Source of the DNA: Branchiostoma floridae
Lineage: Eukaryota > Chordata > Leptocardii > Amphioxiformes > Branchiostomatidae
DNA length: 64,000 nt
Assembly (NCBI RefSeq): GCF_000003815.2
Contig: NC_049990.1
Span: 5,102,626-5,166,625 of the forward strand
Reading direction: 5' to 3'
Shown: one piece after another, positions 35,652-64,000 of the stretch
Layout of the letters: each line of letters begins with the position of its first letter
Position numbering within the stretch: the stretch's first letter is position 1
The notes under the pieces: model-generated
What the model was told of the DNA's origin: nothing
The model's input: the letters and a program-made list of their open reading frames with translations, nothing else
Database searches by the model: none
Made by a program: the position numbers and the translations under genes

Positions 35652-38600
35652 TTAAAGACTAAAGTCCTTGTTTCCGGAGCCTGCTGGAATCGGATTTTGC
35701 TGCCCTCTTGGCAAGGAACCCATTCTTCGGGGGCTCCCTGGAGACATTCCTCCGGGGCTTCTTGGACCCGTTCCTCCTGGACCGTTAGGAGACATCCTCC
35801 TTGTACCTTCAGGTGACATTCTTCCGGGACTACCAGGAGGCACTCTTCTTCCGGGACTTCCGGGAGCCGCTCTTCCAGGACTTCCAGGAGGTGCTCTTCC
35901 AGGACTCCCAGGAGGTGCTCGCCCTAGACTTCCAGGAACAGCTCTTCCGGGACTCCCAGGAGCCGCCCGTCCTGAACTTCCAGGAACGGCTCTTCCGGGA
36001 CTTCCAGGACTTCTTCTGGGACTGCCGGGGCTAGGTCGGTTTCGTTGGGGACTTCCGGGCGGACTTCGAGACCTCTGTTTGTTCGACTTCTTGGGACTCC
36101 CCGGAGGTGTCTTGGGACTGGTTGTATTGCTGGATCGCTTCTTCTTCTTCGTCTCTTTTTCGTCCTCGTCCTGAATACAGTTACCGAAGAGTGAGCTAGC
36201 AAAGGATGGCTTCTTGGGACGATTGGTCACCTCTCTTGGCAGGGAGAGGAAGCACTTTCGACAAACAGGGCGGGAGTCCAGCTTGAAGAACTTGCTCCTG
36301 GAAAATAAGGAAAACAATATGTAATTTTCATGGAAGGTTGAGGCTTGTGATGGTATGATGGTTTTTCAGAATACAGTTGCAGATGCAAAGTACTCGCGAT
36401 ACATACATGTAGAAAAACATATATAAGGTATGACCTATACCAACATTATTGAATGTGACTGAGTGTGCCTCGCTCTCATCTTAGCCAGATAGATGTTTTT
36501 ACGGCTATGTTTTATGAACCTTATATTTCTGTGACTTCAAGCCCGATGAAACTATCTAATGCAGTCAATTATGTTAGGACCCTACTCACTTGGGAGTGAA
36601 CTTGATGTAGCACATGTAGCATTCGAAGTGATCCTCACACACGTGATGGTCGAAGACTCTTATAGCGCCTATGTGAAATGAGCAGAGAACTATGATATAG
36701 CAACGTTATGAAAATAAAGAAAAGGGTAAACTCACTCCTTGTCGAATTTTCTTTTGCAGATCTGGCAACAAAAATGCTCCTCGCACACGTAGTTGTCGAA
36801 GACACGAATAGCACCTGGATTGGCAAGACACAATTCAATTCTGATGTCTTTTTTGTTTCTTCTACAACATGCTGTGGTAAGCCATAGCCACCAAAGACAT
36901 ATAGCCACTGAAAAATTTACAATTTTGATGGTTGAAATAAACCATACAGTTATACTTAGTACACTTAGATAGTGACTAATCAATAGATGATAACTGTCTA
37001 AGGCGTCAAAATAGCTAGAAACCGACGGACGTCCAAACGGGGACTGGTAGATATTATATACATGCAGATGCTCTAAGTAAGTGCATCCGCGCGTTATTGA
37101 CCAGGTTTAGATGACTTTTACAGATTCATGCCTATATAAAATGATATCAAAATTTAATTTTATTGAAGCAAAGTTCACAGTGTTTCTGCAATGCTTATGA
37201 CGTATTTATGTCGGAGTGGTGATTTAACATATACTAGTGGCTGATTGTTTGGAAGAAGCACTTACGTTTTCCCTCGATGACTTGATGGCATACATAGCAA
37301 GTGGTTGCTTCCGCCTGGATATAAAGAAATCACTTATTAGTGTTAAATTCAATAGATACGAATGCATTTTCTCGAAATATGTTTACGCGCTTATATATTT
37401 TCAATTAACACTGCAGCTCAAAAACCAGTGGTCACAGATGTAAGTTAGGAAAATTCAAAGTACAATGTTAGGATCATTATTACTTTGTGTATTGTGATTT
37501 CTCTCTCCCTCCCTCACAATATTTCTCCCTCTATCTACCTTTCCCAGTCTCTCTGTTTCTAACATCAGTTCAACGTACAATTTTGCGATCATTATGACTT
37601 TGCAATTGTGATCTTTCTCTCTCTCCGTCCATCTCCGTATCTCTGCTCCCTCTCTGTTTTTAATATTAGTTCAACGTACAATTTTGCGATCATTATGACT
37701 TTGTAATTGTGCTCTTTCTCTCTCTCCCTTTGTCTTCCTATCTCTGCTCCCTCTCAGCTTCTAATATTAGTTCAACGTACAATATTGCGATCATTATGAC
37801 TTTGTAATTGTGCTTTCTCTCTGTCTCCGTCCATCTCCATATCTCTGCTCCCTCTCTGTTTCTAACACCAGTTCAACGTACAATGTTGCGATCATTATGA
37901 CTTTGTAATTGTGCTTTCTCTCTGTCTCCGTCCATCTCCCTATCTCTTCTCCCTCTCTGTTTTTTACATCAGTTCAACGTACAATGTTGCGATCATTATG
38001 ACTTTGTCATTGTGCTCTTTCTCTCTCACCATCCGTCTCCCTATCCCTGCCTCCTCTCAGTTTCTAATATTAGTTCAACGTACAATATTGCGATCATTAT
38101 GACTTTGTAATTGTGCTCTTTCTCTCTCTCCGTCCATCTCCCTATCTCTGCTCCCTCCTGTTTCTATGATTTGATAAAAGAACTCTGTAAGTTCGTCTTC
38201 ACATGTTTTAAGAAGAGAGAAGAAACATGTAGAAGTATAGACGTAAGCAGAACATAGAATAGCTTACTCTTTGTATGCGTCTTACTGCATTTAGCCCAAA
38301 GAGGGCATGAATATGCAATAAACTTCATTGTCATTGTCATTGTCTAATATTAGTTCAACGTACAATGTTGCGATCATTATGACTTTGTCATTGTGCTCTT
38401 TCTCCCCCCCCTCTCTTTCCCTATCCCTGTCCCTCCACCTCTGTTTCTAACACCACTTACAGTGTGACTTACACTACTCCAGATGGAGGCAGCGTATGAC
38501 AGCGCTCCGGGGCTCTTCGCATCTGGAAACGGGGAGACGGGAGTGGTCGGCGGCAGGCTCATCGGCGATGTTGGGGGTGGACTGAACGGATCCCGGAACG

Positions 38601-41600
38601 ATGTTGGACCTGCAATGGTAAGTGTGTCATTCGATTGTTTCTTGTGTCCTAATCACTTTTGACTTTGATATCGTATTATAGAGTTTATTGAGTTAATTGA
38701 GATTCCCTTTAGCCACTAGTGGGGTTTGTCTTCCAGGGCTCACCAAAGGGACATATACAAATACATAAAGCAGATTTACACAGAAATATATTTCACAGAT
38801 TACATGCAAATACAAACCAGATCACATACAAATACAGACTTAAAATCTGAAATCAAGAATGGAACCATCAATCCTCACGAATACTGTACAGTACTGCGCA
38901 CTACAGTACCCGTATTGTTAAAGCGACTGCAATGATATTGACATGTTGTTTGTAATATGAATGGCATATACGTTGATGCATTTTCTGCTACAATGGGAGA
39001 GAAAGAAGACAGACTTACTGTTGACTGGTGACGAAGCCAGTGGCTTTCTTGTTATTGTCAGAACTGGCGGGACTTTCTTCGGTTTCTTGACCCTGCTGTA
39101 AAATGCAATTCAAAACTATTATATATTTCATTCCCCTTTATAACAACAATGAAAGATAAAGTTGTTGGGCTACCGATTGGTTTCGTCGGAGAGTGACATC
39201 AATACACAATTTCATATCGCCTTTTTCATGTACCATGGCCAAAAAATCTAGACAAAAATTGTTCCCTGGGGAATGCATTGGTGCAACTTTAGGAATATTT
39301 TCAGAGTGGTCAGAGACACTTAAACCTGCCATGATCCTTAATCGCTTCGCCAAAAGTATGGAGCGTGATAACCATATCGTAAATAGCAATGACGTATTAA
39401 AGTTTTACCTATACGTGTACAAGTCTACAATGTACTCTAAAAGGTGACATGTAGAGTGGGTGTATCGACTTACTCGTAACATTCTTGTGACAGTATAGGT
39501 AATGGTCAAAGCGGCGCCAGCACTGTTAGCCCAGTGCTGACTTATCACTGGAAATCCAGTACAGAAGCTATCTTTAGCACTACAACTGAGTACTGATAAA
39601 GGAAATTTAAAGTGAGTGTATGGAAGGCAGAGGAAACGATGGGAAGACAATATAAAAGAATGCACCGGGCCGAGCTTAGCAGAAGCCATAAGAGCGGCGG
39701 AGGATAGAGACAGGTGGAGGAGAATAGTGGATGATGTCATGGTGCCCCAACGACCCATACAGAGGTCAAGGGATAGGTGAGAGGTGAGGTGAGGTGAGAG
39801 TATGGACTTACTCGTAGCATGTCTTGTGACAGTATAGGCTGTTCACGCAGATCATATCATCGGGGGAATCGAACGGCTTTGAGCACACGAAACAGGTGTT
39901 TTCCGACGCCAGCCTCGACTTTCGTTCCTTCCTGTGATAGTTTATACAACAAAGAGCACAGTGACTTAATGCATAATGATATTTGCATGCTCTTACCCTT
40001 ATGGGCTAAATGTATAGATTCGACAGTATTACATGGAATACTAAAGACTAGATACTATTACAAGTAGTGTTACAAGCGGACAGTTATTATTAAACAAAAC
40101 ATCTGGAGCTATGCTATCTCTATAACTATAGTTTACATGCCTCTTCGAGATATCTTCTTAAAACAAGTGCATATATAACTGTTGTTTTCTATAATCATAC
40201 TCATTCGTCGTTTATAGGTCGTTAGATATTTCAAAAGACCACGACATGATACTTTTTCATACTCAACTTTAGCTCAATGCATAGATCAAATCTAATTATA
40301 TGCTGACATGTGATGTAATACACATATTGTAAATATAGAATTTTTGACGACGAACATAAAAATGATGTACATAAAAAAACTGCCAAAGTGATAACTCCAC
40401 CAAAGAAAGCAAGTGCCGCCACACACTGTGTATAAGTCTCCTATAGAGTAGCTTAGTTTGAGACATTTCTGTTTAATTGTATCCACAATATGCAATAAAA
40501 TACCATTATTATCTACGCGTACCCACCTTTCTTCGTCTGTGAGAGTTTTAGACGGTCGTGGAAGGGTGCTTTGGCTAAACTGTTGCTTTGGCAGTTGACT
40601 GACGTTTGGCGTAGACTGGGCATGTATCTGTGGCTCAGGTCTCCTCATGGACTTCGCTGGACCGTTCTGCACGTGGATAGTGTTGCTGATGGAAACGGAC
40701 TTCTTCGGTTTATCCTCGGACTTTATCCACACGGGTTCGTCTGCTTTCTTCTCCCTCTTCTTCATCCGAGGTAGAGTGGTCGGTTCTTCCCAGGTTTTGA
40801 TGTCGTCCACCATTTTGGGCTTCTTGGCGCGCGGTAGAGTGCTGGGTAATGCCAATAGATACACACTGTGGATGAGCAAGCAGATGTTATGGCAAGCGCA
40901 GCAGCAGCAGAGAAAAGCAAAGAGTATAGCACCACATCTTGCTAAGCCTTTGTTGACTTATTCGTGTTTGATTGGTTGGATTAATGATTGAGTATATAGG
41001 TTTTGCAAAGACACAGAAACATTCCAGCTTTAATCCATAGGTAAGAGCCAGCGATATTCCTTTAAATCTATCTCAAAGAATATTTCCTTACCAATGAAGC
41101 CAAGCAGCAAGAGTATTAAGAGGCTTATGATTAAATGTTTTTGCGCACAGATGGCAATTGCAACCATATGATATTATTATCCCAAACATAATACCACCAA
41201 ATGTATAGATACCGTATGATTGGTATCTGTACGTTGCCTCAATTGTTCAGATCATATGACCCAGAAATAATGGCCAAGGGGTTCACGTGGGAAAGGCTAC
41301 CCCCCCTCCCCTCCAAAAAACAACAACAAAGGAGACAGAAAATACATTATGATCAGGAGGGTTTAGTGAGGTAGGGAATGGTATGCACGGTTGCAAGACA
41401 AAGTAATTGATGTATTTTTTAAGAGAGACATTAGCAAAACAGCTTGTGCCATGCATATGATTGATTTGTCAAAGCTAAGAACATGGAATGTTAAACGTTG
41501 TAATGCCATAGCAGCATGGACTGTCATCAAAATCAGTACCAGAAGTTGTTGCTTATAACAGTGTCTGAGGAAGCCTACAGCCTGGCATTGTCTTCATATG

Positions 41601-44600
41601 TAGGTTATAGAACATGTTAGAGTGTTTGATTGAAACCCAGCGATGTGTGACATATGCGGCTGATTGAAATCAAGGTCGCTAGAAGGTGAGCTAAATCTGT
41701 GTGACACCCAGCAAATGCATTTAGATGTTTGGCAACGTTACAAAAGCAATAGCAATTAGTTAAACAAGAACAAAACTACTTAAAACTACTTAATTGTATA
41801 CTATGGCTAAGGATACATTTAGTTTCTAACAAATGTAGTAATTGTAAGCTAAATACAAGACACACTATTTTCCCAAGTATGCACTTATGTTGGGTATACG
41901 TTTGGTTCTCAGCTACTCAACCAGAAAGATGTTTATGCCGACCTTTGGATAACCTTTGGGTAATTCCCTTCCTCGGGGCTTCATGAACACTACACTACTA
42001 CACTACTACTCCTGATTTGGTACCACGTCGCAAGAAGTCCTGCACCTTATTAAAGTATTATACATTTGGAGAAGTGTCAATTTCGCTACTTCACAATGCG
42101 GCAAGGAGTAATAGATTTTATCAAGCAGTGAGCAACGTACCCAAATAGTTTCCGAAAACGTGGCAGAATTACTGCAATGTTTGTTAGCAATGAACCCAAT
42201 ATCGGTATACATATAGATCAACCAACCTTGTGTGCAATGTGTATGGAAGAAACGCATACACTGCGGCAACAGCACTGTCCCGTCGAACAGTGTTTAGACA
42301 CCCAATATGACAAATTTATTCGCCAACGCCCCTTCAAGTTTAACTGCTATTAAAAATAGCCTGAAGGTTGCAAACTAGATAGAAAGGTCACTTACTTGTT
42401 TCCAGCTGTGGCCAGGTGAATCTTCAGGGCGTCCATGTTGACTGTAGCTTTGTTGTCAGGAATAGGATCTTCAGACACGGACAGTTTGTGTTCAGTCTCC
42501 TCGAGTTTCTTTTTCAGTTGGTTCAGCTGTGTGTCCCTGGTATACGGCTTTTTTTCTGGCTTGTCTTCTTGTTGGATTGGTTGCACCGTTGCCATTTTGT
42601 TCTTCTTTTCCTTGTTGCGAGGCCATGTTGATGTTTCTGCCACGTTTTCCTTCTCGTTGTCGTCTGGCTCTTCTTGCTTCTTCATCATCCTCTTCTGTTC
42701 GCGCCTGTCAATCGTGGCATACTTGACTTCTTCTGGACCATCTTCTATGGATTTTTCTTCGATCTCCTCTGATTTCTTCCTTGCTCTGGTGTTGGCCTTC
42801 TTCAGCTCGTGTGGATCAAACGTAGCCGAGCCCATGTCCTTGCGTTCCATGGTAGGACCTGCAGGTTCGAAGCACTGCGTAGGTTTAGGGCGGACTTCTT
42901 TTTCAGGTGCAACCTCACGTGTGACCGCTGACTCTATGTCCTTAGGGACCACCGCTGGGTACTTGGGTTCGGATTTACTGGCTTCTTGTGGTGTTGGAGG
43001 TGTCACTGTCACCTTGGGTTCGGTTTTTGTAACTTTCGTTGGTCCTGTAGCCTTTTTCTCGGCCTGAGTCGCCTTGGGCTGCAAGAAAAGTGACCATGGA
43101 ATGGGCTGTCAATCATTGTAACAAGTTCTACAAGTCTATTTCCATTTCTGAACATATTATTTGCTGGACATACATTATCGACTGTATCCAAGTGGTCTCG
43201 CCATATTCTGTAATTATTTGACAGCTTCACTATGATTTGTTTCTCAATGATGTCGTATTCTCTCATATCGGTTTATGTCTAGATGTTCTTTGGTCATAGA
43301 ATTCTTTAGATATATTGTCTCAATGGATGCGAATCTAACAAGCAAATAACCCTGTTTTGCATGCACTGAATATTTGGTATTATATGTCATATGGTATGCA
43401 GTGAAAGTACGAGCTAGTATAGAATTTACTTCGTTGTTTCATGTGTTACTTTTCAGGCGTACCTCTGGAGTGAGAAGCTCCTCCCATTTTTTCCTGTCGG
43501 GTTCCCACTGAGTTTGCTGCTGCTCAACTGGCTTCTCTTTCTTTGCAGTGGGCTGCTTGGCCTTTGCCTTTTCCTGAGGTAGAAGTTACAATCCATCAGA
43601 AACTAACAGTCTGGCATACAATGTGCTGATTATTATTAATGATAACAGTCATTAGTGACATTAATAGCTTAACGAATTAATAACAGAGGTTGCTAAGTGG
43701 ATAGATTAAGAAAACGCATCAACAAAAGGATTTGGAGCTTACACATAAGCTGCCCCAGTTTTCTGTGGCTAATCCTATATAGCCATGGCAATATTCATAG
43801 GTAACATTATCGTATTGTAAGTAGCGTATGCATAGCGTATCATCTTATCTTCAACATTTCAAAACACGATTACAATGTCTTTACTATCTATATATTGTAG
43901 GTGCACCCGTAAATGCTTACTTGCGTTTGTGTGTGCAAAACCATGGTACTGCATGTACTAAGCCTGTTAGGCTAGAAATGTACAATGCTTTATGTGCTTA
44001 CTATACAAGTAATGGAGTGCAGAGTAACATAGGACGCTTTTATCACATACAAGTTGTTAGGAAAAAGATCATGACCTACCATCTGCTCTGAAGCGTGCTT
44101 TTCTTTCTGCTCTGTTGGCTGAGAAGTGTCAGGTTTAGCTGCCGCTTCAGCTTTGTCACGTTCTCTGTCCTGAAAACAACAACATGACGTAGCACAGCGT
44201 CACTTAGCGTCATCCTCATTTGCATAAATACATATTCAATATTTCCATCGGGCATGGATCATGGGCAAAGTCGGAAAGAAATCATTGTATTATGTACTGG
44301 ATCGCACTTTTTTTTCAACGGCCTGTTGCGTATAGGACTGCACTGAATAAACACTAGATTTATGGCAAAAATGACTAAAAGTGAACTGTACAGTAGAAAC
44401 TATTTAATTGCACAACGGATTATCGCACACGATTCTATTAATTGCACGAAATTAAAAAATCCCGAAACGGCGCGGTCCAGTTGGATGACTTATTATTGCA
44501 CCATCCGGATAGTTGCACGAAATAACCTGGAAAACGGGATGCGCAATTAAACGGCTTTTTACTGTATTGGTTTATACTGGTAAAATACCTGTATCTTTTG

Positions 44601-47600
44601 CATATCATCATTTACAAATTACATAAAGAGAGTAAACCCACCAGTATCCAATACGCCAGCTCAATACTCTTCGGTAGTATCCTCGTGTTCTCCTCTTCCA
44701 CAGGTGCCTTGGGTTTTTGTTGTTTTGTTTCCTGCTGCTTCGGTATTTCTTTCTTCACTGGTTCTTGGACTATCTCTTTTTGCTTTTCTTGTTTTGGCCT
44801 GGGTGTAAAAGCAATATCATCCAGGTTCGTCTCTTGTGGCATCTCTGGTTCTTGTTTAGGTCTTGTCTGTTGAGAAGGTATCTCTTTAGCTCTCTGTGGT
44901 TTGTTCGGGTTGTTGACCAGCTTGTTGGACGAAACTTCAGACTGTCTTGGAGTGATAACCTCGGGTTTGGTTTCTTGAGACTTTGGTTGAACAGGTGCAG
45001 GTTCTGCTCTGGTTTGCGATTTCTTCTCAATGGGTTTACCGAGAGAAGGCGTATCCTTCGCACTGGGTGTAACTTCTTTTTGGGGTTTGGTAGATGGCAT
45101 TTCTGTTGCTTTGGGTTGTTGTTTTTCCACTTTGGGTTTTTCTTGTGGTTGTGTCATTGGTCTAGTGGGGGCAATCTCTTCCTTCGGTTTTGCACGAGCA
45201 GGTTCTTTTGGCTTGGTTTCTCGAGGCTGTGGTTGTGCTGGAGCCGGTTCTTCCTTGCTTTTAGCTGGTACACGTTCTTCTTTAGGTTTTGTTGGAGTGG
45301 GTTCTATCTTGGGTTTCCTTTGCTGAGGTTCTTCCACTTTTGCGGGAGCAGGTTCTGTCACACGTTTGGAAGGGACAGGCTCATCTCTTGGTTTTGGGGA
45401 AACAATCTCCTCTTTTGGTTTTGAAGGAGCAGCTTTTTCTACAGGTTTAGGTTCCTCTTTTGGTTTTGAAGGAGCAGCTTTTTCTACAGGTTTAGTTTGC
45501 TGAGGCTCCTCCTTTGGTTTAGCAGGTGCAGGTTCCTTTTTCCGTTCCTGTTTGGGTTTCCTTTGCTGAGGTTCTTCCACTTTTGCGGGAGCAGGCTCTG
45601 TCACACGTTTGGAAGGAACAGGCTCATCTCTGGGTTTCGTGGGAACAATCTCCTCTTTTGGTTTTGAAGGAGCAGCTTTTTCTACAGGTTTAGGTTCCTC
45701 TTTTGGTGTAGCAGGTGCAGGTTCCTGTTTGGGTTTACTTTGCTGAGGCTTTTCCTGTTTGGCGGGTTCTTTCTTATGTTTGTAGGGAACAGATTGGGTC
45801 CGGGGCTCTATGGGAGGTGGTGCTTCGAAAGGAGCAATGAAGGCAGGTTGTTTTGCAGGGGATGGTTGCCTCTTGGGTTTTGCAGGAGCAGCTTCTTCTG
45901 GTGGTTTTACAGAAGCTGGTTCTTTGTTTGGTTTTGTTGGCGCAGGTTCATCCTTGGGTTTTGTAGGTTCCCCAGTTGGTTTTGAAGGTGCATATTCTTC
46001 TTTTGGCTTTGTAGGTATTGGTTTTTCTTTTGGCTTTGTAGGTGTCGGTTCTGCTGGCTTTGTAGGTGCGAGTTCTGCTGGCTTTGTCGGTACAGGTTCT
46101 GTTGGCTTTGTAGTTGCGATTTCTGCTGGCTTTGTAGGTGCTGGTTCTTCTTTTGGCCTTGTAGGTGTTGGTTCTTCTTTTGGCCTTGTAGATGCTGGTT
46201 CAATTTCTGCTGGCTTTGTAGGTGTGAGTTCTGCTGGCTTTGTGGGTGCTGGTTCCTCCGTTGGCTTCCTAGGTGCAGGCGGTTCTGCTGGCCTTGTAGG
46301 GACAGGTTCTGCTAGTTTTGTAGGTGCTTGTTCTGCTGGCTTTGATGGTGCAGGTTTTTCTACTGGCTTTGTAGGTGCGAGATCTGCTGGCTTTGTAGGT
46401 GCGAGATCTGCTGGCTTTGAAGGTGCGGCTTCTGCTGGCTTTGTAGGCGCTGGTTCTGATGGCTTTGAAGGTGTAGGTTCCTCTTTTGGTTTTGCAGGTG
46501 CCGGTTCTGCTGGCCTTGTAGGTACAGGTTCTGATGGCTTTGTGGGCGCTACTTCTGCTGGTTTTGTAGGCGCCGGTTCTGCTGGCTTTGTAGGTACAGG
46601 TTCTGCTGGCTTTGTAGGTACAGCTTCTGCTGGTTTTGTAGGTGCGGGTTCCGTTGGCGTTTTGGGCACAGGTTCCTCTTTTGGCCTTGTAGGTGCAGGT
46701 TCTTCTACTGGCTTCGTGGATTCTGGTTCCTCTGTTGGCTTTGAAGGTACAGGTTTTGGTTCTGGTTCTGTTGGCTTTGTAATTTCAGGTTTTGCTGGCT
46801 CTGTAGGTGCTGATTCTGCTGGTTTTGTAGGTGCATGTTCTCCGGGCTTCGTAGGCGCTGTTTCTGCTGGCTTTGAAGAAACGGGCTCCTCTATTGGCTT
46901 TGCAGGTACAGGTTCTACTGGCTTTTTCGGTTGAATTTCTGTTGGCTTTGTAGGTGCAGGTGCCTCTGTTGGCTTTGTAGGCGCAGGTGCCTCTGTTGGC
47001 TTTATAGGCGCAGGTTCTGCTGGGTTTGTGGGTGCTGGTTGAATTTCTGTTGGCTTTGTAGGTGCTGGTTCCGTTGGCTTTGTAGGTGCAGGTTCCTCTG
47101 TTGGCTCTGTAGGCGTCGGTTGTACTGGCTTTGTAGGTGCTGGTTGAAGTTCTGCTGGCTTTGTAGGTGCTGGGTCCTGCATTGGTTTTGTAGGTACTGC
47201 TTCTGCTGGTTTCGTAGGCGCTGGTTCATCCATTGATTTTGTAGGTGCAGGTTCTGCTGGCTTCGTAGGTAAGAGTTCTGCTGGCGTTGTAGGTACAGGT
47301 TCTGCTGGTTTTGTAGGTGCAGGTTCTGCTGGCTTTGTAGGTGCAGGATCTGCTGGCGTTGTAGGCACGACGTCTGCTGGTTTTGTCGGTGCAGGTTCCG
47401 CTGGCTTTGTAGGTGCAGGATCTGCTGGCGTTGTAGGTACGACGTCTGCTGGTTTTGTCGGTGCAGGTTCTGCTGGCTTCGTAGGTGTCAGGTCTGCTGG
47501 CTTCGTAGGTGTCAGGTCTGCTGGCTTTGTAGGTGCAGGATCTGCTGGCTTTGTAGGTACGACGTCTGCTGGTTTTGTCGGTGCAGGTTCCGCTGGCGTT

Positions 47601-49240
47601 GTAGGTGCAGGATCTGCTGGTTTTGTCGGTGCAGGTTCCGCTGGCGTTGTCGGTGCAGGTTCTGCTGGCGTTGTAGGTGCAGGATCTGCTGGCTTTGTAG
47701 GTGCTGGTTCCTCCGTTGGCTTCATAGGTGCAGGCTTGTCTGCTGGCTTTGTAGGTATAGGTTTTGTTGGCTCCGTAGCTGTAGGCTTTTCTGCGGGGGT
47801 TGTCGGTGCAGGACTTTCTGCGGGTTCAGTTGGTGCAGGATTGTCTGTAGGTTCAGTTGGTGCAGGCTTGTCTGTTGGTGCAGTTGGTGCAGGCTTGTCT
47901 GCGGGTGCAGTTGGTTCAGTTGGTGCAGGCTTGTCTGTTGGTGCAGGCTTGTCTGTTGGCGCAGTTGGTTCAGTTGGTGCAGGTTTGTCTGTGGGTGCAG
48001 TTGGTGCAGGCTTGTCTGTGGGTGAAGTTGGTTCAGTTGGTGCAGGCCTGTCTGTTGGTGCAGACTTGTCTGTTGGCGCAGTTGGTTCAGTTGGTGCAGG
48101 TTTGTCTGTGGGTGCAGTTGGTGCAGGCTTGTCTGTGGGTGAAGTTGGTTCAGTTGGTGCAGGCCTGTCTGTTGGTGCAGGCTTGTCTGTTGGCGCAGGC
48201 TTATCTGTTGGCGCAATTGGTTCAGTTGGTTCAGTTGGTGCAGGCTTGTCTGTTGGCGAAATTGGTTCAGTTGGTGCAGACTTGTCTGTTGGTGCAGTTG
48301 GTGCAGGCTTGTCTGTTGGTGCAGTTGATGCAGGCCTGTCTGTGGGTGCAGCTGGCGCAGGTTTGTCTGTTGGCGCAGTTGGTGCAGGCTTGTCTGCGGG
48401 TGCAGTTGGCGCAGGCTTGTCTGTTGGTGCAGTTGGTGCAGGCTTGTCTGTTGGTGCAGTTGGTGCAGGCTTGTCCGCAGGTGCAGTTGGTGCAGGCTTG
48501 TCTGCGGGTTCAGCTGGTGCAGGCTTGTCTGCGGGTTCAGCTGGTGCAGGCTTGTCTGTTGGTGCAGTTGGTGCAGGCTTGTCCGCAGGTGCAGTTGGTG
48601 CAGGCTTGTCTGCGGGTGCAGTCGGGGCAGGCTTGTCTGTTGGTGCAGTTGGTACAGGCTTGTCTGTGGGTGCAGTTGGTGCAGGCTTGTCTGCGGGTGA
48701 CGTTGGTGTAGGCTTGTCTGTTGGTGCAGTGGGCGCAGGTTCCTCTGTTGGCTTCGTGGGTGCAGGTTCTTCTCCTGGTTTGGCTGGCGTAGGCTCATTG
48801 TCTCCCGTAGGTTCTGAGGGAGTCGGTGCTTTTTCTGGAGAAGATTGAGTAGGGTCGTCAGAAGGTTTAGATGTCGGGGCAGGCTCCCCATTTGGCTTGC
48901 TTTCAGGACCATTCAAGGCGGGTTCTGTATCAGGTTTCGGGACTGACTGGAGAAGGGTCTTGCCGATATCGCTGATTTTATCCAGATCCATTGCTTCCGC
49001 CTTCTTCAGAGAATTTTCTAGTTCTTTAAGTCTCTTCTTCAGGTACTCTGTTTGGCTCTCAAGAGCTTTCTTGGTTTCTACGAGCTTCTCTAGCTTTGTG
49101 TTGACGTCAGAGTCCCCAGGTACCTCGTCCTCAAGCTTGGTGTGGAGTTCGTTATAGGCAAACAGAAGATCGTCGTGATCCTCTTCCAACTCTTTGAGCC
49201 GATCTACTTGTTCGTTTAGCCGGTCGAGCAGATTCGGCAT
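35652..49240 (-). CDS. LIM gene A: giant PEVK-like repeat protein with PINCH-like LIM domain
   Basis: Exons: complement(35652-36297, 36590-36668 or 36736-36814, 37266-37314, 38473-38609, 39019-39095, 39812-39931, 40527-40841, 42396-43078, 43463-43573, 44080-44169, 44642-49240). Phases agree throughout; 2301 aa. The start ATG at 49240 has an in-frame TGA four codons upstream. Residues 1-100 are a Leu-heptad coiled coil (LNEQVDRLKELEEDHDDLLF). About 170-1450 are Pro/Thr/Ala/Lys/Glu repeats. Exon 6 has an isolated half-LIM (CFVC...CHKTC). Residues 2050-2102 form a full LIM with ligands C2050, C2053, C2071, H2074, C2077, C2080, C2099, C2102. The tail is PGSPGR repeats, basic. The LIM most resembles LIM5 of PINCH (CYVCHQVIEGK, PVCRKC). 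A cytoskeletal or adhesion role is inferred. Not an identified orthologue of any vertebrate gene. Confidence 0.88.
36590..36668 (-). other. LIM gene A alternative exon 10b
   Basis: 79-nt exon encoding AIRVFDHHVCEDHFECYMC then YIKFTP. Acceptor CACATAG, donor GTGAGT. It supplies LIM ligands C3, H4, C5 and C6 at the same spacing as 10a. Using both exons would shift the frame. Confidence 0.88.
36736..36814 (-). other. LIM gene A alternative exon 10a
   Basis: 79-nt exon encoding AIRVFDNYVCEEHFCCQIC then KRKFDK. Acceptor AATCCAG, donor GTGAGT. Same phase at both ends as 10b. It has one extra cysteine next to ligand C5 and a more basic zinc-finger tip. The intron separating it from 10b is 67 nt. 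Confidence 0.88.
37450..38450. repeat. ~100-bp minisatellite in LIM gene A intron, with LINE-tail interruption
   Basis: Eight units of about 101 bp share TTCAACGTACAATGTTGCGA, TCATTATGACTTTGTAATTG and a CT-rich half. Units begin near 37456, 37568, 37671, 37773, 37872, 37972, 38077 and 38352. The gap before the last unit holds a foreign segment ending AATAAACTTCATTGTCATTG, a LINE-like 3' tail. The array runs up to the exon 8 donor. Confidence 0.85.
39458..39499 (-). pseudogene. Partial copy of the LIM gene A exon 6 donor end
   Basis: 42 bp matching 39801-39842, the 3' end of exon 6 with its donor, at about five differences. It lies on the far side of an insert made of a dispersed repeat and a LINE tail. 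It may be a long, old target duplication or a small exon duplication. It cannot act as an exon because it has no acceptor. Confidence 0.7.
39503..39795 (+). mobile_element. Dispersed repeat plus LINE 3' coding tail
   Basis: 39503-39612 is a third copy of the repeat at 32742-33036. It is followed by a plus-strand reading frame (RQRKRWEDNIKECTGPSLAE, then AEDRDRWRRIVDDV) ending in TGA at about 39778. This is the C-terminal end of a LINE reverse transcriptase. A short GTGAG-rich tail follows. It is a 5'-truncated insertion in an intron of LIM gene A. Confidence 0.75.
44391..44564. mobile_element. Tigger/pogo-like MITE in LIM gene A intron
   Basis: Starts CAGTAGAAACTATTTAATTG and ends with the inverse (GCGCAATTAAACGGCTTTTT, then ACTG). 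TA lies outside both ends (44389-44390 and 44565-44566). The internal part repeats TTGCACGAAAT on both strands. The CAGT start and TA target are typical of Tigger/pogo elements. Confidence 0.83.
44900..48730 (-). repeat. Coding minisatellite of LIM gene A exon 1
   Basis: Three repeat dialects follow each other in the protein. Residues about 170-465 (DNA 47850-48730) use a 9-residue, 27-nt unit DKPAPTAPT. Residues about 490-1095 (45960-47760) use 7-8-residue units such as APTKPAE and VPTKPAD. Residues about 1095-1450 use Lys/Glu-rich units such as KPKEEPAPA. The opposite strand is also open over long stretches, purely as a result of the codon pattern. Confidence 0.9.
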
Positions 49241-52619: not shown

Positions 52620-52790
52620 TTTATATATAACAAGAAGCGAGAAGAGGCCGAACTCCTGTGTTAGACTTAAGATCTGTGATACTTTTTTTGTCTTTATCTT
52701 TGTGGTGACATGTACTTAACCTGGCTGGGCAAAAATGTACAATTAAGGTCTTCATTCATTCATTTATTCATTCATTCATTTATAACTGCC
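52620..52790 (+). mobile_element. LINE 3' tail with (ATTC)n
   Basis: AAGAAGCGAGAAGAGGCCGA, ATCTGTGATACT and CTGGGCAAAAATGTACAATT AAGGTCTTCATTC lead into tandem ATTC/ATTT units. Same family as 49473-49930 and 33795-33925. Confidence 0.75.
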
Positions 52791-54500: not shown

Positions 54501-57500
54501 TTATACTGTTATCTTGTCAGTGTTAGGTGACCGCGGACTCCGTACCATGTCCCTTATGGCATCGACGATGGTTCTCTTCTTCCTGGTTTGGAGCAGGGAT
54601 GCCGGGACCTTGTCTTTACAGTGTTTACAGACGGGACGGCCGTCACAAGCGTAGAACTTGTCACTGAAGTAACAGGTAAAAAGAAATACACAATCGTATT
54701 GATAAAAAAGAATAGGACTTATTGTTCATACAACTTTGATATCTTTATTGAGACACGACAAAAGTACAGCGACTTTCGTAAGGTTTTGTATAACAGCTAC
54801 ATACAGTACAATTTAACATACATATATAGATATCTAAAGGTATGAATGAATCAACATATATTTGGCCCAATGTACATATATTTTCCCGATTATTTGTTGA
54901 CCATATAGGTATATTTTGGTTGAGAATAGGTACAGAAATCAAGCATGTGGATTCGACCTTTTTCTCCCAATTTGATATGATCAGATGTAACATCATATAT
55001 GTTTCGTTATGGGGTGCTTATCTAAATTCACATGGATTTGTCAGTATTGCTGAAATGTATCAATTGATATACATGTTCTCTTTGAAAAAAAAATCTTTGA
55101 CTCTTTGAAAACAACCATACAGCACATATTCATATATTATATCGGACATCCTCTAGCCAAGGCTTGCTTAATCTCAATGGCATAGGTGTTGACTTATTCT
55201 GCCACGCATACACGATTCGTAAAGCTAAAGGGGTAGTTGTAACACTAAAGCAAATTGGAAAGTTGTTCTGGGAAGAACACGTAATATGTACTTACTCCAG
55301 TTTGATGTTCTGGCTGCACATCGCACAGCTGAAATGCTGTCTGCACCATGTTTTGTTCATCGCGCAGATTACTGGAATGAAAACACGTAGAAAATCGTTG
55401 AACTCATGTCATACAGGGCATTGGACTTGATACATCTGAGTCGATTTGATTATCATTTCTGAATATTGAAGAGATATTATAGGTTATAATTTTTGCTTAC
55501 TTTCATCCGTTATGGGCTGGTCACAGGCGTAGCAGAAGTCACTGAATAACTGCAAAATCAATTCATAACAAAAGTCAATCATGGACCATGTATAGATATG
55601 TTCGTAAGTTGCTTTGTGTGTATTGCACATACTGTAAACCACCTCATTGAGTATCGCGCTAAACCTGTACAAGCTGTATATCCATACAGATCTATCAAGC
55701 TGCTCTGACAACTTAATTGACATCGGGTAGTCGGATCAATTCACAAGTCTTATTTGGAAGTCGCGGATACCAACATTAAGTACTGACTAAAGGAATGAAC
55801 AGACAGACAAACCTCATGGAAGTGCTGTTCACAGTAGGCTTTCCCGCCGTGCTCGTAGTGTGGAAGTCCAACTGCTTTGAAGGGTATGCCGCATCTTGCA
55901 CATCGGAAGTGCTAAAACAAATGTGTCATTGCAACTTATTCAGCTCGACAGAGCAAATTATATATAAACATTAACTCTAAGGATTTAGGTACGGATCGTA
56001 TGAAAGAAATTTACTATATTATTACAAAGCTAATGTCCATATGGCAAACAGGGCAACGTCTCAGTTTAGCCCCTGACCCCTGACCACACAGTGACCACAC
56101 AGTTATACACAACTCCAGTCAAGCACTGCTGTCGAAAGTTTTATTTTTATTTATTTTGACCAATACTCAATGTCGAGGATTTGATTCAGACTGTAAACCA
56201 AGCCCCTTTGACCGCTCTGCCATCCTGACATCGTTTAACACTATCATTGATAGAGCATTACGTCACATGTATTGGCATATGGGGTATCTTATCCTAATGT
56301 CATCTAAAGCAAGTGATCTCTGTTATCCAGTACATCCAACAATGGATGCTGTCCGGTACCTACCTCTGCATGCCAGTAACGCCCCAGCGCAACAATCATC
56401 ATTCCAGTGATCTCCTCCCTTAGAAAAAAATGTTCAAGGATGGAGATGTTAAAAAGGTACCTGAAATAAGCTTTCATCTATCTCGTGGAGAAATAACAAA
56501 ATAGAGTTTCAGGGAAGGAAGCAAACAATCCGTGTATTGACTACTGACATTGGTGTGGTTACTGTAAACTCGAAGTGCAACGCTACACGTACGTTTATCA
56601 AATGTCAAATGTAAGCTACACTGCTGAAGGTCTTACCCGCAGACCCAGCATGTGTTCAAGATCTGATCATCCTCTTTTGGAGGCTTCCTAGAGGTTTCAT
56701 CAGGTTTGTCTTCAATGTCGGGCTTTGGAGACCTACAAAGGAGTAAAAGCCATATAATGCACATGTATATAGTTTCATTGCGTTGTCAAGTCAATATAAA
56801 CATCATAATAAGAGCATCAGTGATCTAAAATGTTCATTTAGACCTACCTATCTTCGTCTGGTGCCTGTATGGGTTCTTCTGTAATAAAGTAAAACAATTT
56901 TAATGTCAGATAAAAAAAAAACATCTTAAGAAAATCGGTCGATTGGTAAAGCAGATTCTAACAGTAAAGAAATGGAGACCGAAATCAAATTGGAACAGCA
57001 ATATAAGTTTGCACAGTTTACTCACCCTTATTGTTCTCTTTGTCTTTTCTGAGAGGGAAACAGAAAGTTTCATGTATTCTTGTTGTATCAGAATAACATG
57101 TAAGGCACTACTGATCATGACATGCTGTATATTTAAGCACACAAGTGTCTCAAGCGATTTAGAAAGCAATGTATGTAAACGTACAAGCAAAAAAAATTAT
57201 TTGATTAAACATTGGTAACTGTTTAAAAGTAAATATTTGAGAGACATAATTGAAGAGACTAATTATATACACTTGTCACTTCACAAAAGAAATCAGTGAG
57301 CACTTACGACATGCACGCCTGGTGCAAGATGAGTCCGTTGAAGTTCACAACGACATCAGAATCCTTTAGAACTTTACGACACTTCACACATGTTTCCTCC
57401 AAGGGCTTTATTTTCTCCCATATCGGTACATCATCATTGTCCTCTTTATCGGACGGTTCCTCCAGGTCTCTAGGTAGGGGGCAAAGTAAGGAAAGAAACA

Positions 57501-60500
57501 CTGCTTTCATTTTTATTGTCACAGTTGTATAGCCATCCTTGTTACATTACTTTGATTCCACGATGTAAAGCTTTTATGGTGTAAGATAAATCTGTCGTTA
57601 AACAATTTGTATGCAAAATTGTATTAGTCAACAAGAGTCCTAATTGACCTACTTTTGTTTCGGTGGCAGCTTCGGGGGAACCTCCAGAGAATCATCTTGA
57701 TCCTCAATCAATGGAGTCGGTGCGTCTTCTTTGGGTTTCTTTTCCAGAACCGGTGAGCTGTGTACATCACTTGGGGCTTCGGTCTTCGGGGTATCCTTGA
57801 ACCACGGAGACCATGCTTCTTCAGGATCATTATCCTCTTCCTCAGTTGGTTCGTCTAATGGTTTTGAGACTGGTTCATCTTCTTCCTGCCCTGGGTCTTC
57901 CTGTGCGGCAAAGTTCTCAATCACGGTGGAAAAACTCTCATTCGGAGAAGTGGATTCGGGGAATTTCAGGGCTGAAGGAGAGTCAGGAGACCGATCTGTA
58001 TCTTTTGGTGGATCCTCAAGAGATGGAGCGTTCTCCTTATTTTCATCGTCTTGGTCAGGTATTGCGTCTCCTTCGAGATCTGACTTGGGGCCATCGTCAC
58101 TTTTCGACTTGGCTTTCCTCTTAAATGAATTCCGAAGTTTGGACAGCTTCCGCGGGAGGTTGATCTTCTTCTTCTCTGGTTTAGTTGGTGCTTCGTCTTG
58201 AGTGTCAACAATTTCATCCGGCTGATGACTCGGACCCGGTGTCGCCATGTCTTCCTGATCAGCTGCCTTGGAGGTGACAGGCTCGTCTGATTCCACATCG
58301 CTTGGTTTCTTCTGGACATGAGGCGTAAGTTCCTTTTCGCTGTCAGATAACAGCCCGTCTTTAAGTTTAGAAAGGAGTGACCTGCTTGGTTTCTTAGGCT
58401 TTTGAGACTCTGGTTCTTGAGGCGAAGATGGCGTGTCGACACTGTTGTCGGGGTCATCTGTTATTTCTGGTACTGGCTCTTCTGGATCATCTGTCATTTC
58501 AGGTTTTCCCTCATCCGGTGTTTTATCTGATTTGCGTCTCTTAGCCTTCTCCTTCAGTGATTTTCGTAATGCCTTCAGGCGGTCCAGAGATCCTGGCGTT
58601 TGAGAATCGGGCTCTTGAGGTGAAGACGGTGTGTCAAGTTCTTCGACAATATTGTCTGGGTCATCTTTTGTTTCGGGTTCATCATCATCTGGTGATTTGT
58701 CTGATTTGCGTCTTTTGGTTTTATCCTTCAGTGATTTGCCCAATGCCTTCAGACGATCCAGGGATGCTGTCTTTTGTGAATCTGGTTCTTGAGGCGAAGA
58801 TGGTGTACCAACTTCCTCGACAGGATTTTCTGGTTCATCTACCATCTCAGGTTTATCTTCATCCGGTGATTTTTCTGATTTGCGTCTCTTGGCCTTATCC
58901 TTTAATGATTTGCCCAGTGCTTTAAGACGATCCCGAGCTCCTGGCGTTTGAGAATCTGGCTCTTGAGGTGAAGACGGTGTGTCAACTTCTTCGACAATAT
59001 TGTCTGGATCATCTTTTGTTTCGGGTTCTTCCTCATCCGGTGATTTCTCTGATTTACGTCTCTTGGTTTTGTCCTTTAACGATTTGCCCAATGCCTTCAG
59101 ACGATCCAATGATGCTCGCTTCTGTGAATCTTCTTCTTGGGGTGAAGATGGCGTGTCAACTTCTTCGACAATATTGTCTGGATCATCTTTTGGTTCAGGT
59201 TTATCTTCATCTGGTGACTTGTCTGATTTGCGTCTTGTAGCTTTATTCTTCAGTGATTTTCCTAATGCCTTCAGACGATCCCGACCTGCTTTGAATGATT
59301 CTGATCTCTTTTTCGTTTTGACGGGCGCAAGTTCATCTGGGACGATTCCCTGTTCTTCTTCTTTTGGAACGTCGTCGTCACTTCCCTTACAAGGAGCATT
59401 CAGGACGTCATCGGGGCTATGGAATATGTCGTCTAAGTTTGTCTGAAGTGGTGGCGCATCAGAGAAACTTATCTCTGGATATTTGTTTTCATCCACCGGA
59501 GAGGGCAGCTGTTCTTCCGATCGTTGACTCTTCCTCTTAACAGGTAGGGGAGGTGGTTCAATTCTGTCTGGTTTGTTGTCATTTTCCTCTTCAGTCTGTT
59601 CTTCGGGCACGATCAGTTGTTCAGCATCCGTCGGAGCATCTTCCTTCTTGCCCTTTGACCGCCTAGGGGGTAGCGGTGGCGCACTTTCTGTTGGTACACT
59701 TTCTGTCGGCTCTGATATATGTTGGTCTTCAAGCGTTGGTTCGTCTTTAGTCTCATCTTCAGGAGGTTTTTCCTCGACTGTAGCTGGCACGTCTTCTTTG
59801 TCTTCTTCTTTAGGTTTTTCTGGTTCAGTTTCTACAGGTCTCTCTTCAGTCACTGGCTCTGTAGTATCTGGTTCCTTCTCTTCCTCCACAGTCGCCTCCT
59901 TCTGTGGCACAGGTTCTTCAATCGTCTCAGGCTTGATGTCCTCTTCCTTATCCGGAATAGAGGGTTCCTCCTTTTCCTCCGGTATTACTGGTTCTATTTT
60001 CTCTTGCGGCTGTGGCGGCATAGACGTCACAGGCTCTGGTTCGACTTGTTCTGGCGCCTTCTTTACCTCTTCTGGTTGTGGTGCAGCTGGTTCCACTGTC
60101 ACTGGGGTCACATCCTCCTTCTCCTCTTGTTTCGGGGCTTCAGCATCCTCTTGCGGTTGTGGTACCGGTGGTGCGGCCTTCACAGGTTCTTCTTGTTGTG
60201 GGGCAGCTGCTTCAACCGCCACTGGAGTTACATCCTCTTTCTTCTCTGGTTTCGAGGGTTTCTCTTCCTCTTGTGGTTGTGGTGGTGCGGCCTTCACAGG
60301 TTCCTGTTCAACTTGCTCCTGTATTGGGACTGGTTCTTTCTCCTCTTCCTTCTCTGGTGGTGGTGATTCAGCTTTGACAGGCTCCTCGTTGTCTTTTGTC
60401 TCGGGAACATCTTTCTTGTGCCGCGGAGGGGGCGTTGGCATCTCTGTTGGTATCTCCACGGGTTTTTCAGGGGTTGTATCTGGTGTCTTTTCCTGTCTCT

Positions 60501-63500
60501 TTTGTGGCGGTGGTGACATGGATTTGTCGTCTCTTTTCCGCCTTGGTGGTGGCTCTACCTTTTCTGGTTCCTCCTCTTCCCTTTTTTGCGGTGTGTCTGG
60601 TACCTTCGGCAATTCCTTCCTCTTGGTTTCCGGTGATTCTACTTCATTGTCCGATGATATGTCGTGCGTAAGGCCGTCTTTGAGTTTCTTCAGTTTGGAA
60701 AGAAGTGTTTTGCTTGGTTTCCTAGACCGAGGACTAGTGGGGAGATTCTCCTTTGCTTGTGGAGGCGCAGCAAAGACAGGTTCGTCCTCTATCTTTTGCG
60801 GAATCTGTGGTGCTGGTGGCGCAGCCTTTACAGGCTCGACGTTTTGGAGCGTTGCGGGTGGTTCTTGCGCCTTCGGTGGATCAGCATTCACAGGCTTCTC
60901 TTCAGACTTCTTACGTGATTTTGTCTTATCCTTTGCTGGCTTTTTCTCCTTGGTCTTCTTCTTTGTAGGTTCTTCTGTGGGCTCTTTATTCTTGGAAGAT
61001 TTTCTTACCTTTGGTGATGGTGTCTTTGGAGTTTTCTTCTCTTTAGTTGACTTGGGTCTTGGAGAAGGTGGAGCTGCCTTGTCTTCAGATGGCTTTTCTA
61101 TGATAGGGCGGGTTTCTGCTGCCTTCTGGTCAGGAGCATCAGGCTTGCTCGTTGTAGGCTCATTTTTTGGTCGCTCTGTCTCTTTGACAGGCTTCGTTGT
61201 TGCTGGATCATCCTTAGGTTGCTCGGTCACCTTGGTAGGTTTTGGCTCTTCCTTAGACTTCTCTGCCTCCTTAGACGGTTTTGTCTCTTCCTTAGGCTTC
61301 TCTGTCTCCTTAGACGGCTTAGGCTCATCCTTGGGCTTTTCTGTCTCTTTAGGCACCTGTGGCTCATCTTTTGGCTGTTGGGACTCCTTGGCAGGTTTTG
61401 ATTTTGCAGGCTCATCTTTGGGTGTTTCTGTGGCCTTGTTGTCAACTTCTGAGCTTCGCTCCAGGAGCCCCTGCAAAGACTTGACTGCAGGTGAAGGTTC
61501 TTCCTTTTTGGTTGGAATGGTGTCACTAGGACTTTTGTCTTTGGGCTTGGTTGCATCTTCGGGTTTGGGTACAATTTTAGGCCTCGCCACTGGCGTTTTC
61601 CTATCTTTTGGACGACCGAAAACGTAGTCTAGGAACGAACCCAACGTATCCGATTCTTCTTCTTGTGGGCCCAACACACTACCATTGGTCTGAAATGAAA
61701 AGAGAAAATGATATAGTTGAAAAACTGACGCAATTGAGTGCTTTTAGAAGGGTCTGATTGCTTTCTGACAAGACTCTGAGCATTTGACACAAACACAAAA
61801 GACGCAGGAAGATAGTGTGACTGGCATCTGAAATAATTGTCTATTTTTGGGCGCACTGTCATCTATCCATCTTCACCCAAAGGGCATAGAAACAATGTGT
61901 CCTACATATTAGTGCTCCTATTGTATAGACCCATTTTCTAAAACAATGGACATTTTGGAACATACTCCCGCGAGAAAACAGTGTTGCGAGAAATTGCGTG
62001 AGGACGGGAATGGATCAGATTGGCAGATGCCGCAATAAGAAAGATAAATCTTATCTGAGACAAAAATGCTATAGGGAATATTACTATAAGCTGAGACTAA
62101 GACGTCAAATTAAAGATTATTCCAAGCTTAAACCAAGATGCTAAAGAAATGATTATTCTCAGCTAATACTAAGTAAATAAGTATCTATCCATGAACTACG
62201 TTCTACCATTTTCAGCTTAACACAAAGATTGGTGATGGGGTATTTTAGTGCAGATTATGCACAGACACGATTCTGTCCTACCACCATATATCTTTTATAT
62301 TGTGCCAAAACAACCTCGAAGCTAAAGCCTGTCGATTTGTTACACCTTTTTGTGAATCATTTGAAAAACGTGAATCATTTATCTGGTGAGCCTTTGCAAT
62401 ACCGCTTGAAACACAAAATTGATTGTTTCTTTAGATATGCATCTTGATTGGTATGAAGAACTTTTTTGGCTGTGCCTTGTGACTTACGACGTGCATTTAT
62501 TTACCTTATCATCTGGCGTCTTCTGTTCACCGTCTTTTTGTTCTTTTGGCGTTTTTGTGGGTTTCGCAGGCTTTTGTTTCTTCCTTGGGCATGGTGGTGT
62601 CAACGGTACATCCTCAAACTCCATTGGGACTATTCCAAACACGAGCATTGGGTTAAGGGGTGCTTTATTGCCCTTTGCTGGTTTAGATGAGCCATTCGGT
62701 TTGCTGCTGGTATTTTTCTCTTCCGGTTTCTTGCTTGGCCTCTTTTCTGCTGCATCCTTTTGTTTGTTATCTTTCTCTGTTGGTGTGCCTACCGGGAGGG
62801 TTGTTGGTCGTTTGCGCAGACTCTTTGTCCTCGGCGGTGGTATTGGAGCTGGTTCGTCTGTTTTTGCGTCGTCACCTGGCAGGGCAGTCTTCGGCTTTTG
62901 TCCTTGTGACGGTTCATCTGTAGATTTGTCAGTAGACTGATCCTCAGGCGGAGGCGGAATTGTCTCTTCGTCTAGATGTAGCGTCTTTAACAGGCGATCA
63001 AGGACACCTTCAGATGGCTTCTTCTTCGCTGCGTCTTCTGGCTTATCGGGTTGTCTATCTGAGGAATCTGTCTTGTCTGGATCGGTATTGTTTTCGTTTT
63101 CTGTTGGCTTACTGCCCCGTTTGCTTGGGTCATCTTCTCTATCTTTCGGTTTTAGTTTGCTTAACAAGTTGTCCAGCAGACCTAGTTTGTCATCCTTGTC
63201 AGTTGTAGGTTCGGGTGAACCACCAGAATCAGGATGCCTGGAAGTGCTCACTGGCTTCTTTTGATTTGCACGTGAATCTTTTTCGACAGACTGTCTACCG
63301 TCGCTGTATTCGTTGCTCGGGGTATCTTCCGAGTCTTTTGGCTTTGGTTTTATCTTCTTTAACAAGTTGTCAAACAATCCTGGTTTGTCATCCTCATCTT
63401 CTTCAGTTTTAGGATCCTTAGCGGTGGTTTCTGGCTTTGTTTGATTTGCTGTTGGTTGTGACCCGTCACTGCCGTCTTTGCTCGGGGTATCTTCTGAATC

Positions 63501-64000
63501 CTTTGCCTTGGGTTTCATTTTCTTTAATAAGTTGTCAAACAGTCCCGGTTTGTCATTCTCGTCTTCTTCAGTCTTAGGATAGTTAGTGTTGGTTTCTGGC
63601 TTTCTTTGATCTCTTGGAGACTCGTCGTCGACAGGATGTTTCCTCTTACTATCATCTTTGTTTACGTTATCTTCCGGACCGGTTGCCTTTGGTTTTAGTT
63701 TGTTTAACAAGTTATCAAGCAGACCTGGTTTCTCATCGTTGTCTGTCTCATCTTTAGTTGAAGGCTCAGTACTTGATGGTTCCTGTTTGTCTGGAACATT
63801 CCGACCTTTCTTCTTCTTCAATAAATTACCAAAGAAGCCATCATCCTCTGGTACTGATGTCGAGTCACCTTTGGGTGTTGTGTCGCTCTTTTTGTTGGGT
63901 TCTTTTATTCTTTTCGATCCATTGGAGGGTTGGCTTGGCGTTGTCTTTGTTGGTGGTGATGTATCATCCCTTTGCACTGGCTTAGGTGTTGTGGCTACAC
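54501..64000 (-). CDS. LIM gene B: giant Lys/Glu/Pro-rich protein with PINCH-like LIM domains (5' end outside)
   Basis: Exons: complement(54501-54663, 55296-55371, 55501-55549, 55813-55911, 56364-56418, 56637-56732, 56848-56878, 57026-57048, 57308-57469, 57653-61689, 62505-64000 and beyond). All GT/AG, phases agree; about 2095 codons visible. Exon at the edge carries repeats of GLFDNLLKKIKPKPKDSED. The 4-kb exon has five copies of a 54-residue module (DRLKALGKSLKDKAKRRKSD...) and SH3-ligand-like motifs (PPLPPRR, PPPLPVKR, PIPPPRTK). The C-terminus has a half-LIM (CVKC...HQAC), a full LIM resembling PINCH LIM4 (WHAEHFRCARC, KAYCEQH) and a full LIM resembling PINCH LIM5 (CYACDQPITDE, PVCKHC), and a basic tail. 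Same orientation as, and paralogous to, gene A. In PINCH, LIM4 binds Nck2 and LIM5 binds RSU1; whether that holds here is unknown. Confidence 0.88.
57026..57048 (-). other. 23-nt micro-exon of LIM gene B
   Basis: Encodes KDKENNK between acceptor CCCTCTCAG and donor GTGAGT. The next exon, 56848-56878, is only 31 nt. Phases of both fit their neighbours, so both are probably real. Together (54 nt) they could be skipped without a frame change. Confidence 0.75.
58480..59300 (-). repeat. Five tandem 54-residue modules in LIM gene B
   Basis: Each module of about 162 nt encodes a basic amphipathic stretch (DRLKALGKSLKDKAKRRKS), then KSPDEDKPE, an acidic part (DDPDNIVEEVDTPSSPQE) and a spacer. Variation between copies is mainly at K/R, E/D and S/T. 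The SP and TP sites suggest proline-directed phosphorylation. Confidence 0.88.
61690..62504 (-). other. Intron of LIM gene B
   Basis: 815-nt intron between the edge exon and the 4-kb exon, bounded by GTAAAT and TTTCAG. No embedded gene or repeat was recognised. Confidence 0.7.

Follow-up and report, generated by a model that had tools for sequence, protein, structure and literature searches.

PINCH is described as a compact adaptor of five LIM domains that is held by ILK, and the question raised by a locus of Branchiostoma floridae is whether LIM domains of this type can also stand at the end of very long disordered chains and, if so, what such proteins would do. The locus lies in a stretch of 64,000 nucleotides (nt), called the window below (contig NC_049990.1, positions 5,102,626 to 5,166,625, of assembly GCF_000003815.2), whose minus strand carries two neighbouring genes, here named gene A and gene B. 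As read from the assembled frames, disordered exons are joined in frame to a half-LIM finger and PINCH-type LIM4-LIM5 in gene A, and to a half-LIM finger and a PINCH-type LIM5, through an uncertain linker, in gene B; gene A also carries LD-type motifs, and gene B two alternative LIM5 cores together with a predicted helical N-terminus. The explanation that we prefer, and to which we give close to an even chance, is that the two genes are tandem duplicates derived from a PINCH-type gene, in which LIM exons were joined to disordered exons, and that their products are flexible multivalent scaffolds.

Two genes on the minus strand

Long open frames, read from stop to stop, occupy 63998-62487, 61743-57652 and 49249-44615 of the minus strand; they are of low complexity, rich in Pro, Lys, Glu, Thr, Asp or Ala, with tandem arrays within, and LIM-type zinc-finger patterns are found downstream of the long exons in gene A and gene B alike. 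Both genes were assembled exon by exon, and the order of their parts is the same. The first-pass annotation, which had claimed that neighbouring genes of the same strand join long disordered exons to PINCH-like LIM domains, is borne out by these models, since multi-kilobase exons splice in frame in both. The two are not parts of a single gene, a possibility that was ruled out because gene A stops at 54501 and gene B has an ATG of its own at 49240, with an in-frame stop that starts 12 bases upstream of it.

Gene A (54501-63998, minus strand, as are all the exons given below) has nine exons in the window and encodes at least 2076 amino acids, its 5' part and N-terminus lying beyond position 64000. 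A disordered exon with five LD-type motifs, which runs past the window end (62505-63998), is followed by the 4-kb exon, encoding a P/E/K/D-rich disordered chain with five 58-residue repeats (57653-61689), by the half-LIM finger exon (CVKCRKVLKDSDVVVNFNGLILHQAC; 57308-57469), by a linker exon whose end provides the first LIM4 ligands, CWVCG (56637-56732), by a LIM4 exon (EEITGMMIVALGRYWHAE; 56364-56418) and by an exon with the second LIM4 finger, HFRCARC..YCEQHFHE (55813-55911); LIM5 is then encoded by an exon of 49 nt (LFSDFCYACDQPITDE; 55501-55549), an exon of 76 nt (55296-55371) and a last exon that also holds the C-tail, with a candidate amphipathic helix, and the stop codon (54501-54663). 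The frame is kept at all eight junctions in the window, with GT and AG at every site, and an intron of only 183 nt separates the 4-kb exon from the half-LIM exon.

Gene B (35652-49240) is modelled as ten exons encoding 2266 amino acids, with a stop ending at 35652. Its first coding exon (44642-49240) encodes the helical N-terminus (residues 4-99) and then about 1400 residues of PAPTKP/PTDK-type repeats; exons 2 to 5 (44080-44169, 43463-43573, 42396-43078 and 40527-40841, the last of these with TLPR motifs) lead to the half-LIM exon (CFVCSKPFDSPDDMICVNSLYCHKTC; 39812-39931), the linker exon (38473-38581), a first LIM5 exon of 49 nt (AEATTCYVCHQVIEGK; 37266-37314), a second LIM5 exon of 79 nt present in two versions (version 1, 36736-36814; version 2, 36590-36668) and a last exon with the end of LIM5 and a tail of PGSPGR repeats (35652-36297). 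By a simple site score, the donors rank between the 93rd and 99.6th percentile of all GT sites in 35000-64000 for gene A and between the 96th and 99.8th for gene B, while the acceptors rank between the 77th and 99.9th and between the 88th and 100th percentile, respectively, of the AG sites in the same range.

The weak points of the gene B model are the linker exon and the donor of the first exon, both picked for frame keeping: the linker acceptor is weak, five single-exon candidates that keep the frame were found in a scan for this linker, the best-scoring of them being 39474-39585, and the frame breaks if the linker exon is skipped. The acceptor at 38609 outscores that of the linker exon (1.9 vs -0.3) but brings in a stop codon downstream of the half-LIM; its use (38473-38609) would end gene B soon after this finger, giving a possible short isoform without LIM5. 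A 101-bp tandem repeat of about six copies (37549-38166) lies within an intron of gene B.

LIM domains of PINCH type

The sequence affinity of the LIM domains of both genes is to PINCH, as judged by several comparisons. Pfam assigns LIM to the gene A pair and to both gene B versions. In a comparison with the 177635 distinct sequences of the PDB, with 52 matches listed for the gene A pair and 34 for the gene B LIM, the gene A pair matches PINCH1 LIM4-5 with 120.6 bits (E 6.6e-34), the next family among the matches listed being paxillin, with 73.2 bits; version 1 of the gene B LIM matches PINCH1 LIM5 with 44.3 bits (E 2e-10), paxillin being again next among those listed (23.5), and all of its top four rows are PINCH1. 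A tree of 36 domains over 53 columns (32 references and four domains from the window) was used to see whether the LIM domains fall in another family, the outcome that would have counted against the earlier proposal; for LIM5, the domains of both genes group with their PINCH1 counterpart, gene A LIM5 and both gene B versions forming with PINCH1 LIM5 a group with support 100/96. The assignment of gene A LIM4 is based on the pairwise scores (149 with PINCH1 LIM4, 123 with paxillin LIM2) and on the PDB match of the pair, not on the tree. By eye, the zinc ligands are kept in LIM4 and LIM5 of gene A and in both LIM5 versions of gene B, and Cys as third zinc ligand of LIM5 is found, among the 32 references of the tree, in PINCH1 LIM5 only. 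The exon phases of LIM5 (0 to 1, 1 to 2) and the intron positions are common to the two genes, and the first LIM5 exon is of 49 nt in both, which supports a tandem duplication.

The resemblance to the last two LIM domains of PINCH, proposed at first for both genes, thus holds for gene A, which has the LIM4-LIM5 pair, and only in part for gene B, in which a single LIM5 is found at the C-terminal side and LIM4 is absent. Further likenesses to PINCH (LIMS1/LIMS2) are the LF[SG]D linker between LIM4 and LIM5 of gene A and the charged C-tail. The architecture is different: PINCH consists of five tandem LIM domains and a short tail, while gene A has LIM4-5 and a half finger and gene B has LIM5 and a half finger, LIM2-3 being absent, LIM1 present as a half at most, and the half finger being preceded, within the sequence available for both genes, by about 1850-1950 residues. 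One to three PINCH genes per animal are listed in PMC3305314.

The half finger, a single CxxC..HxxC pattern upstream of the LIM domains, lies in both genes in a phase-2-to-2 exon, so that the earlier statement that only LIM4/5-like domains are kept needs amending on this count, as it does for LIM4 of gene B. For gene A, four of the five PDB matches of this finger are to PINCH LIM1 (E 0.11-0.69), and a derivation from LIM1 is only a suggestion. No LIM-like second finger follows the half-LIM in the introns scanned of either gene, that is, no complete LIM1 was found there, and none of the exon candidates scanned shows the ligand pattern of a LIM second finger. The CxxC matches at 57107 (gene A) and 38461 (gene B) were rejected as second finger of LIM1, the later ligands of such a finger being absent; the spacing of 18 residues between ligands 2 and 3 was dropped as a marker of LIM1 because the FHL2 and zyxin domains of the tree have the same spacing. 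A half-LIM zinc finger is known in FHL proteins, where, unlike here, it is N-terminal to four LIM domains, and LIM5 of the two genes does not group with the FHL2 domains in the tree. ILK is reported to bind PINCH LIM1 (PMC3561323); an adhesion link bypassing ILK is plausible.

As to the residues engaged by partners, those critical for RSU1 binding in PINCH1 include, according to PMC8141872 and PMC7909951, D295, K297, T280, F307 and R314. Both genes keep D295 and have Arg in place of Lys at position 297, and R314 is kept in gene B. Docking of an RSU1-like protein by LIM5 of either gene is possible. PINCH is described in PMC3305314 as five LIM domains with a leucine-rich motif of 12 residues directly after the last one; taking the PINCH1 stretch FPLELKKRLKKL to be this motif, an assumption whose letters do not come from that paper, only a partial correspondence is found in gene A (VPASLLQTRKKR) and gene B (LPREVTNRPKKP).

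The two versions of the second LIM5 exon of gene B, adjacent to each other at 36814-36736 and 36668-36590, have the same base at 50 of 79 positions and the same residue at 16 of 27, with equal phases and good splice-site scores. Either of them alone gives the open frame of 2266 residues, both or neither an early stop; from the frame, they are predicted to be mutually exclusive. Zinc ligands three to six lie in the stretch that they encode, as does the position of T280, a residue that contacts RSU1 in PINCH1 (PMC8141872, PMC7909951).

Disordered chains and LD-type helices

The composition of the chains had been likened to that of the Pro-Glu-Val-Lys (PEVK) region of titin. The likeness holds in so far as the chains are long, disordered, repetitive and rich in Pro, Lys and Glu, and it fails in the proportions: PEVK content is 40.6% and 50.7% in the two big exons of gene A and 55.8% in the repeat region of gene B, and valine is about 2.6% (obtained by subtraction), 5.0% and 3.3%, respectively. 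With Ala counted, the fractions become about 44%, 56% and about 70%, to be compared with means of 0.79-0.84 for titin PEVK exons and with a cut-off of 0.54 of the PEVK finder (PMC6469411); two of the three segments are above the cut-off and none reaches the titin means. The chains are moreover encoded by huge exons, those of titin by many short ones, and no Ig (immunoglobulin), Fn (fibronectin) or other sarcomeric or titin domain was found among the Pfam matches in the exons scanned.

Order-promoting residues amount to 7-19% in the segments outside the first 110 residues of gene B. The chain of gene A is a polyampholyte with about 42% charged residues and many amphipathic segments, not one homogeneous chain, and its C-tail holds the strongest amphipathic Pro-free 14-mer of the whole gene A protein; five copies of a 58-residue repeat with a basic amphipathic segment (LDRLKALGKSLKDK) lie at 58481-59281 on the minus strand. 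When neighbouring repeat units are compared, differences are commonest at codon position 3 in all nine comparisons (p<0.05 in seven; one array enters twice, with different periods), so that the arrays look coding; codon differences that change the amino acid outnumber the silent ones in five of the nine, which indicates that constraint on the repeats is moderate. At the N-terminus of gene B, two long helices (residues 4-37 and 44-83) and a short one (89-99) are predicted from the single sequence with a mean predicted local distance difference test (pLDDT) score of 74.8, the blocks of residues 1-80 scoring 73-90.

Motifs of the paxillin type, absent from the first-pass annotation, span 62979-63719 (minus strand) in gene A. 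Three are exact matches to LDxLLxxL, namely LDNLLNKL (63696-63719), LDNLLSKL (63153-63176) and LDRLLKTL (62979-63002), and two are near matches, FDNLLKKM (63516-63539) and FDNLLKKI (63351-63374); LDRLLKTL overlaps what we take to be a nuclear-export-like pattern. The shuffle mean of exact matches is 0.001, and none of 2000 shuffles reaches three, a figure that overstates the case because tandem repeats were not modelled in the control. An AlphaFold model of 360 residues of gene A, made from the single sequence and unconfident overall (mean pLDDT 48.5), contains exactly five helices, roughly evenly spaced and each placed on one LD-type site: residues 93-100 for LDNLLNKL, 153-160 for FDNLLKKM, 208-216 for FDNLLKKI, 273-281 for LDNLLSKL and 332-339 for LDRLLKTL. 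Genuine LD motifs are short helices in disordered regions, according to PMC7703752, and a helical LDxLLxxL in a disordered region, the trait of the paxillin family, is found in gene A only, with helices of low confidence. To the paxillin family (PXN, Hic-5, leupaxin) gene A is indeed alike in having a disordered N-terminal part with LDxLLxxL helices and C-terminal LIM domains; it differs in that its LIM domains are of PINCH type and two in number, instead of the four of paxillin, in that the flanks of the LD motifs are basic, and in a chain several times longer than paxillin.

The combination had been put forward as undescribed, and no such protein was found as far as the searches of open-licence papers reach; an annotated, unpublished relative may well exist.

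Mechanism, competing explanations and neighbouring genes

The products of the two genes may be pictured, with somewhat less than an even chance, as a family of giant adhesion tethers not described before, consisting of a paxillin-like LD array (gene A) or a helical self-association module (gene B), a spacer of at least about 1800 residues and a PINCH-derived LIM5, the binding face of which would be exon-switched in gene B. For partners, location and mechanical role we infer the following. The LIM5 end would dock at integrin adhesions via a partner resembling RSU1 or via a different ligand of LIM5. The LD motifs of gene A would capture LD-binding adhesion proteins such as FAK/PYK2, vinculin, talin, parvin or GIT, in line with the partner list (FAK, vinculin, talin, parvin and GIT type) in PMC7703752. 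The helical N-terminus of gene B may self-associate or anchor the far end, the disordered chain would serve as spacer or tether between the ends, and the alternative LIM5 exons of gene B could switch the partner-facing surface.

A number of observations weigh against this reading. At the RSU1 interface, neither gene keeps T280 or F307, and gene A has lost R314 as well; the retention of D295 is weak evidence because D is common at this position in LIM domains (paxillin, for example); and F307...LKK, the WH2-like actin site of PINCH (PMC6203859), is not kept in either gene. The bootstrap of the LIM tree had not settled, 23 of its 33 inner branches being open, and the placement of gene A LIM4 is not settled by it. 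The best PDB match of the gene A half finger is FHL1 (E 0.011, with weak matches summed), and the gene B half finger shows no PINCH preference in the same comparison, for which reason an origin from LIM1 is not claimed for it. With regard to the LD motifs, AlphaFold gives the gene A sites low confidence (pLDDT about 50-60) and leaves FFGNLLKKK, a sixth site of related sequence at 56, without a helix, and the flanks on the 3' side are basic; the motifs lie partly in a tandem repeat of 55-60 residues and are thus not five independent events; a scan of the 2266-residue model of gene B found no LD motif; and degenerate versions of the motif occur widely in proteomes (PMC7703752).

The explanation offered at first was an entropic spring in the manner of titin, in which the disordered region would chiefly store elastic force between the LIM anchor and a second one at the opposite end. 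The very long chains of low order would suit it, as would the layout of gene B, in which a Pro/Ala/Lys/Glu/Thr-rich repeat region stands between the helical module and LIM; the PEVK content of 41-56%, with 2.6-5% valine, is however below the titin exon means (PMC6469411). Nor is the absence of sarcomeric domains among the Pfam matches favourable to it, or the inhomogeneous, amphipathic chain of gene A, whose LD-type helices speak no less for a binding scaffold than for a spring; the spring is, on balance, a weak and unlikely account. A cytoskeletal spacer or brush, resembling neurofilament side arms or microtubule-associated proteins (MAPs), with LIM fingers in an unrelated localisation role, is distinctly unlikely: it would accord with the polyampholyte nature of the gene A chain and with its basic amphipathic repeats, and there is a resemblance to neurofilament or MAP proteins, but the clear PINCH LIM4-5 sequence and the LD array point to adhesion partners.

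We regard as quite improbable a drifted or nuclear-shuttling relative of PINCH, in which LIM5 would have no actin or RSU1 function and the leucine-rich helices would be nuclear export signals. The loss of the WH2-like residues and the changes in several RSU1 contacts speak for it, and LDRLLKTLHL fits the spacing rule of nuclear export; that LD and export motifs overlap is stated in PMC7703752. The kept zinc ligands and the excess of codon position 3 among the differences between repeats speak against it. It is very improbable that the models are artefacts, with repeat exons and LIM exons belonging to different transcripts: in gene B the choice of an exon and of a donor was guided by the frame, the acceptor at 38609 scores better, and the polyadenylation hexamers nearest to the stops lie about 1 kb (gene A) and about 1.7 kb (gene B) past them, but the unbroken frame of gene A, its short intron before the half-LIM exon and the common order of parts in the two genes argue otherwise.

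Should the duplicated PINCH-type genes indeed encode adhesion scaffolds, the toolkit of integrin adhesion can be reshuffled into flexible linkers of long reach, one of them with paxillin-type LD motifs, and the apparent splice swap of the LIM5 surface in gene B would be a natural test of which surfaces decide the choice of partner.

Other genes are found elsewhere in the window. Exons with the Pfam domains Ligase_CoA and ATP-grasp_2 (13144-20904, minus strand) belong to what we take to be the gene of the succinyl-CoA ligase beta subunit. A C-5 cytosine methylase, presumably DNMT2/TRDMT1-like, is represented by its C-terminal part at 22698-23366 on the plus strand, just after an N gap (Pfam DNA_methylase, 5.8e-10). 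Galactose-3-O-sulfotransferase exons are present at 24060-26584 (minus strand) and 26484-27557, next to a 248-bp tandem array in which the start of one exon is repeated about four times. Finally, a frame of the non-LTR (long terminal repeat) retrotransposon endonuclease type occupies 1-1350 on the minus strand (Pfam Exo_endo_phos, 6e-07).

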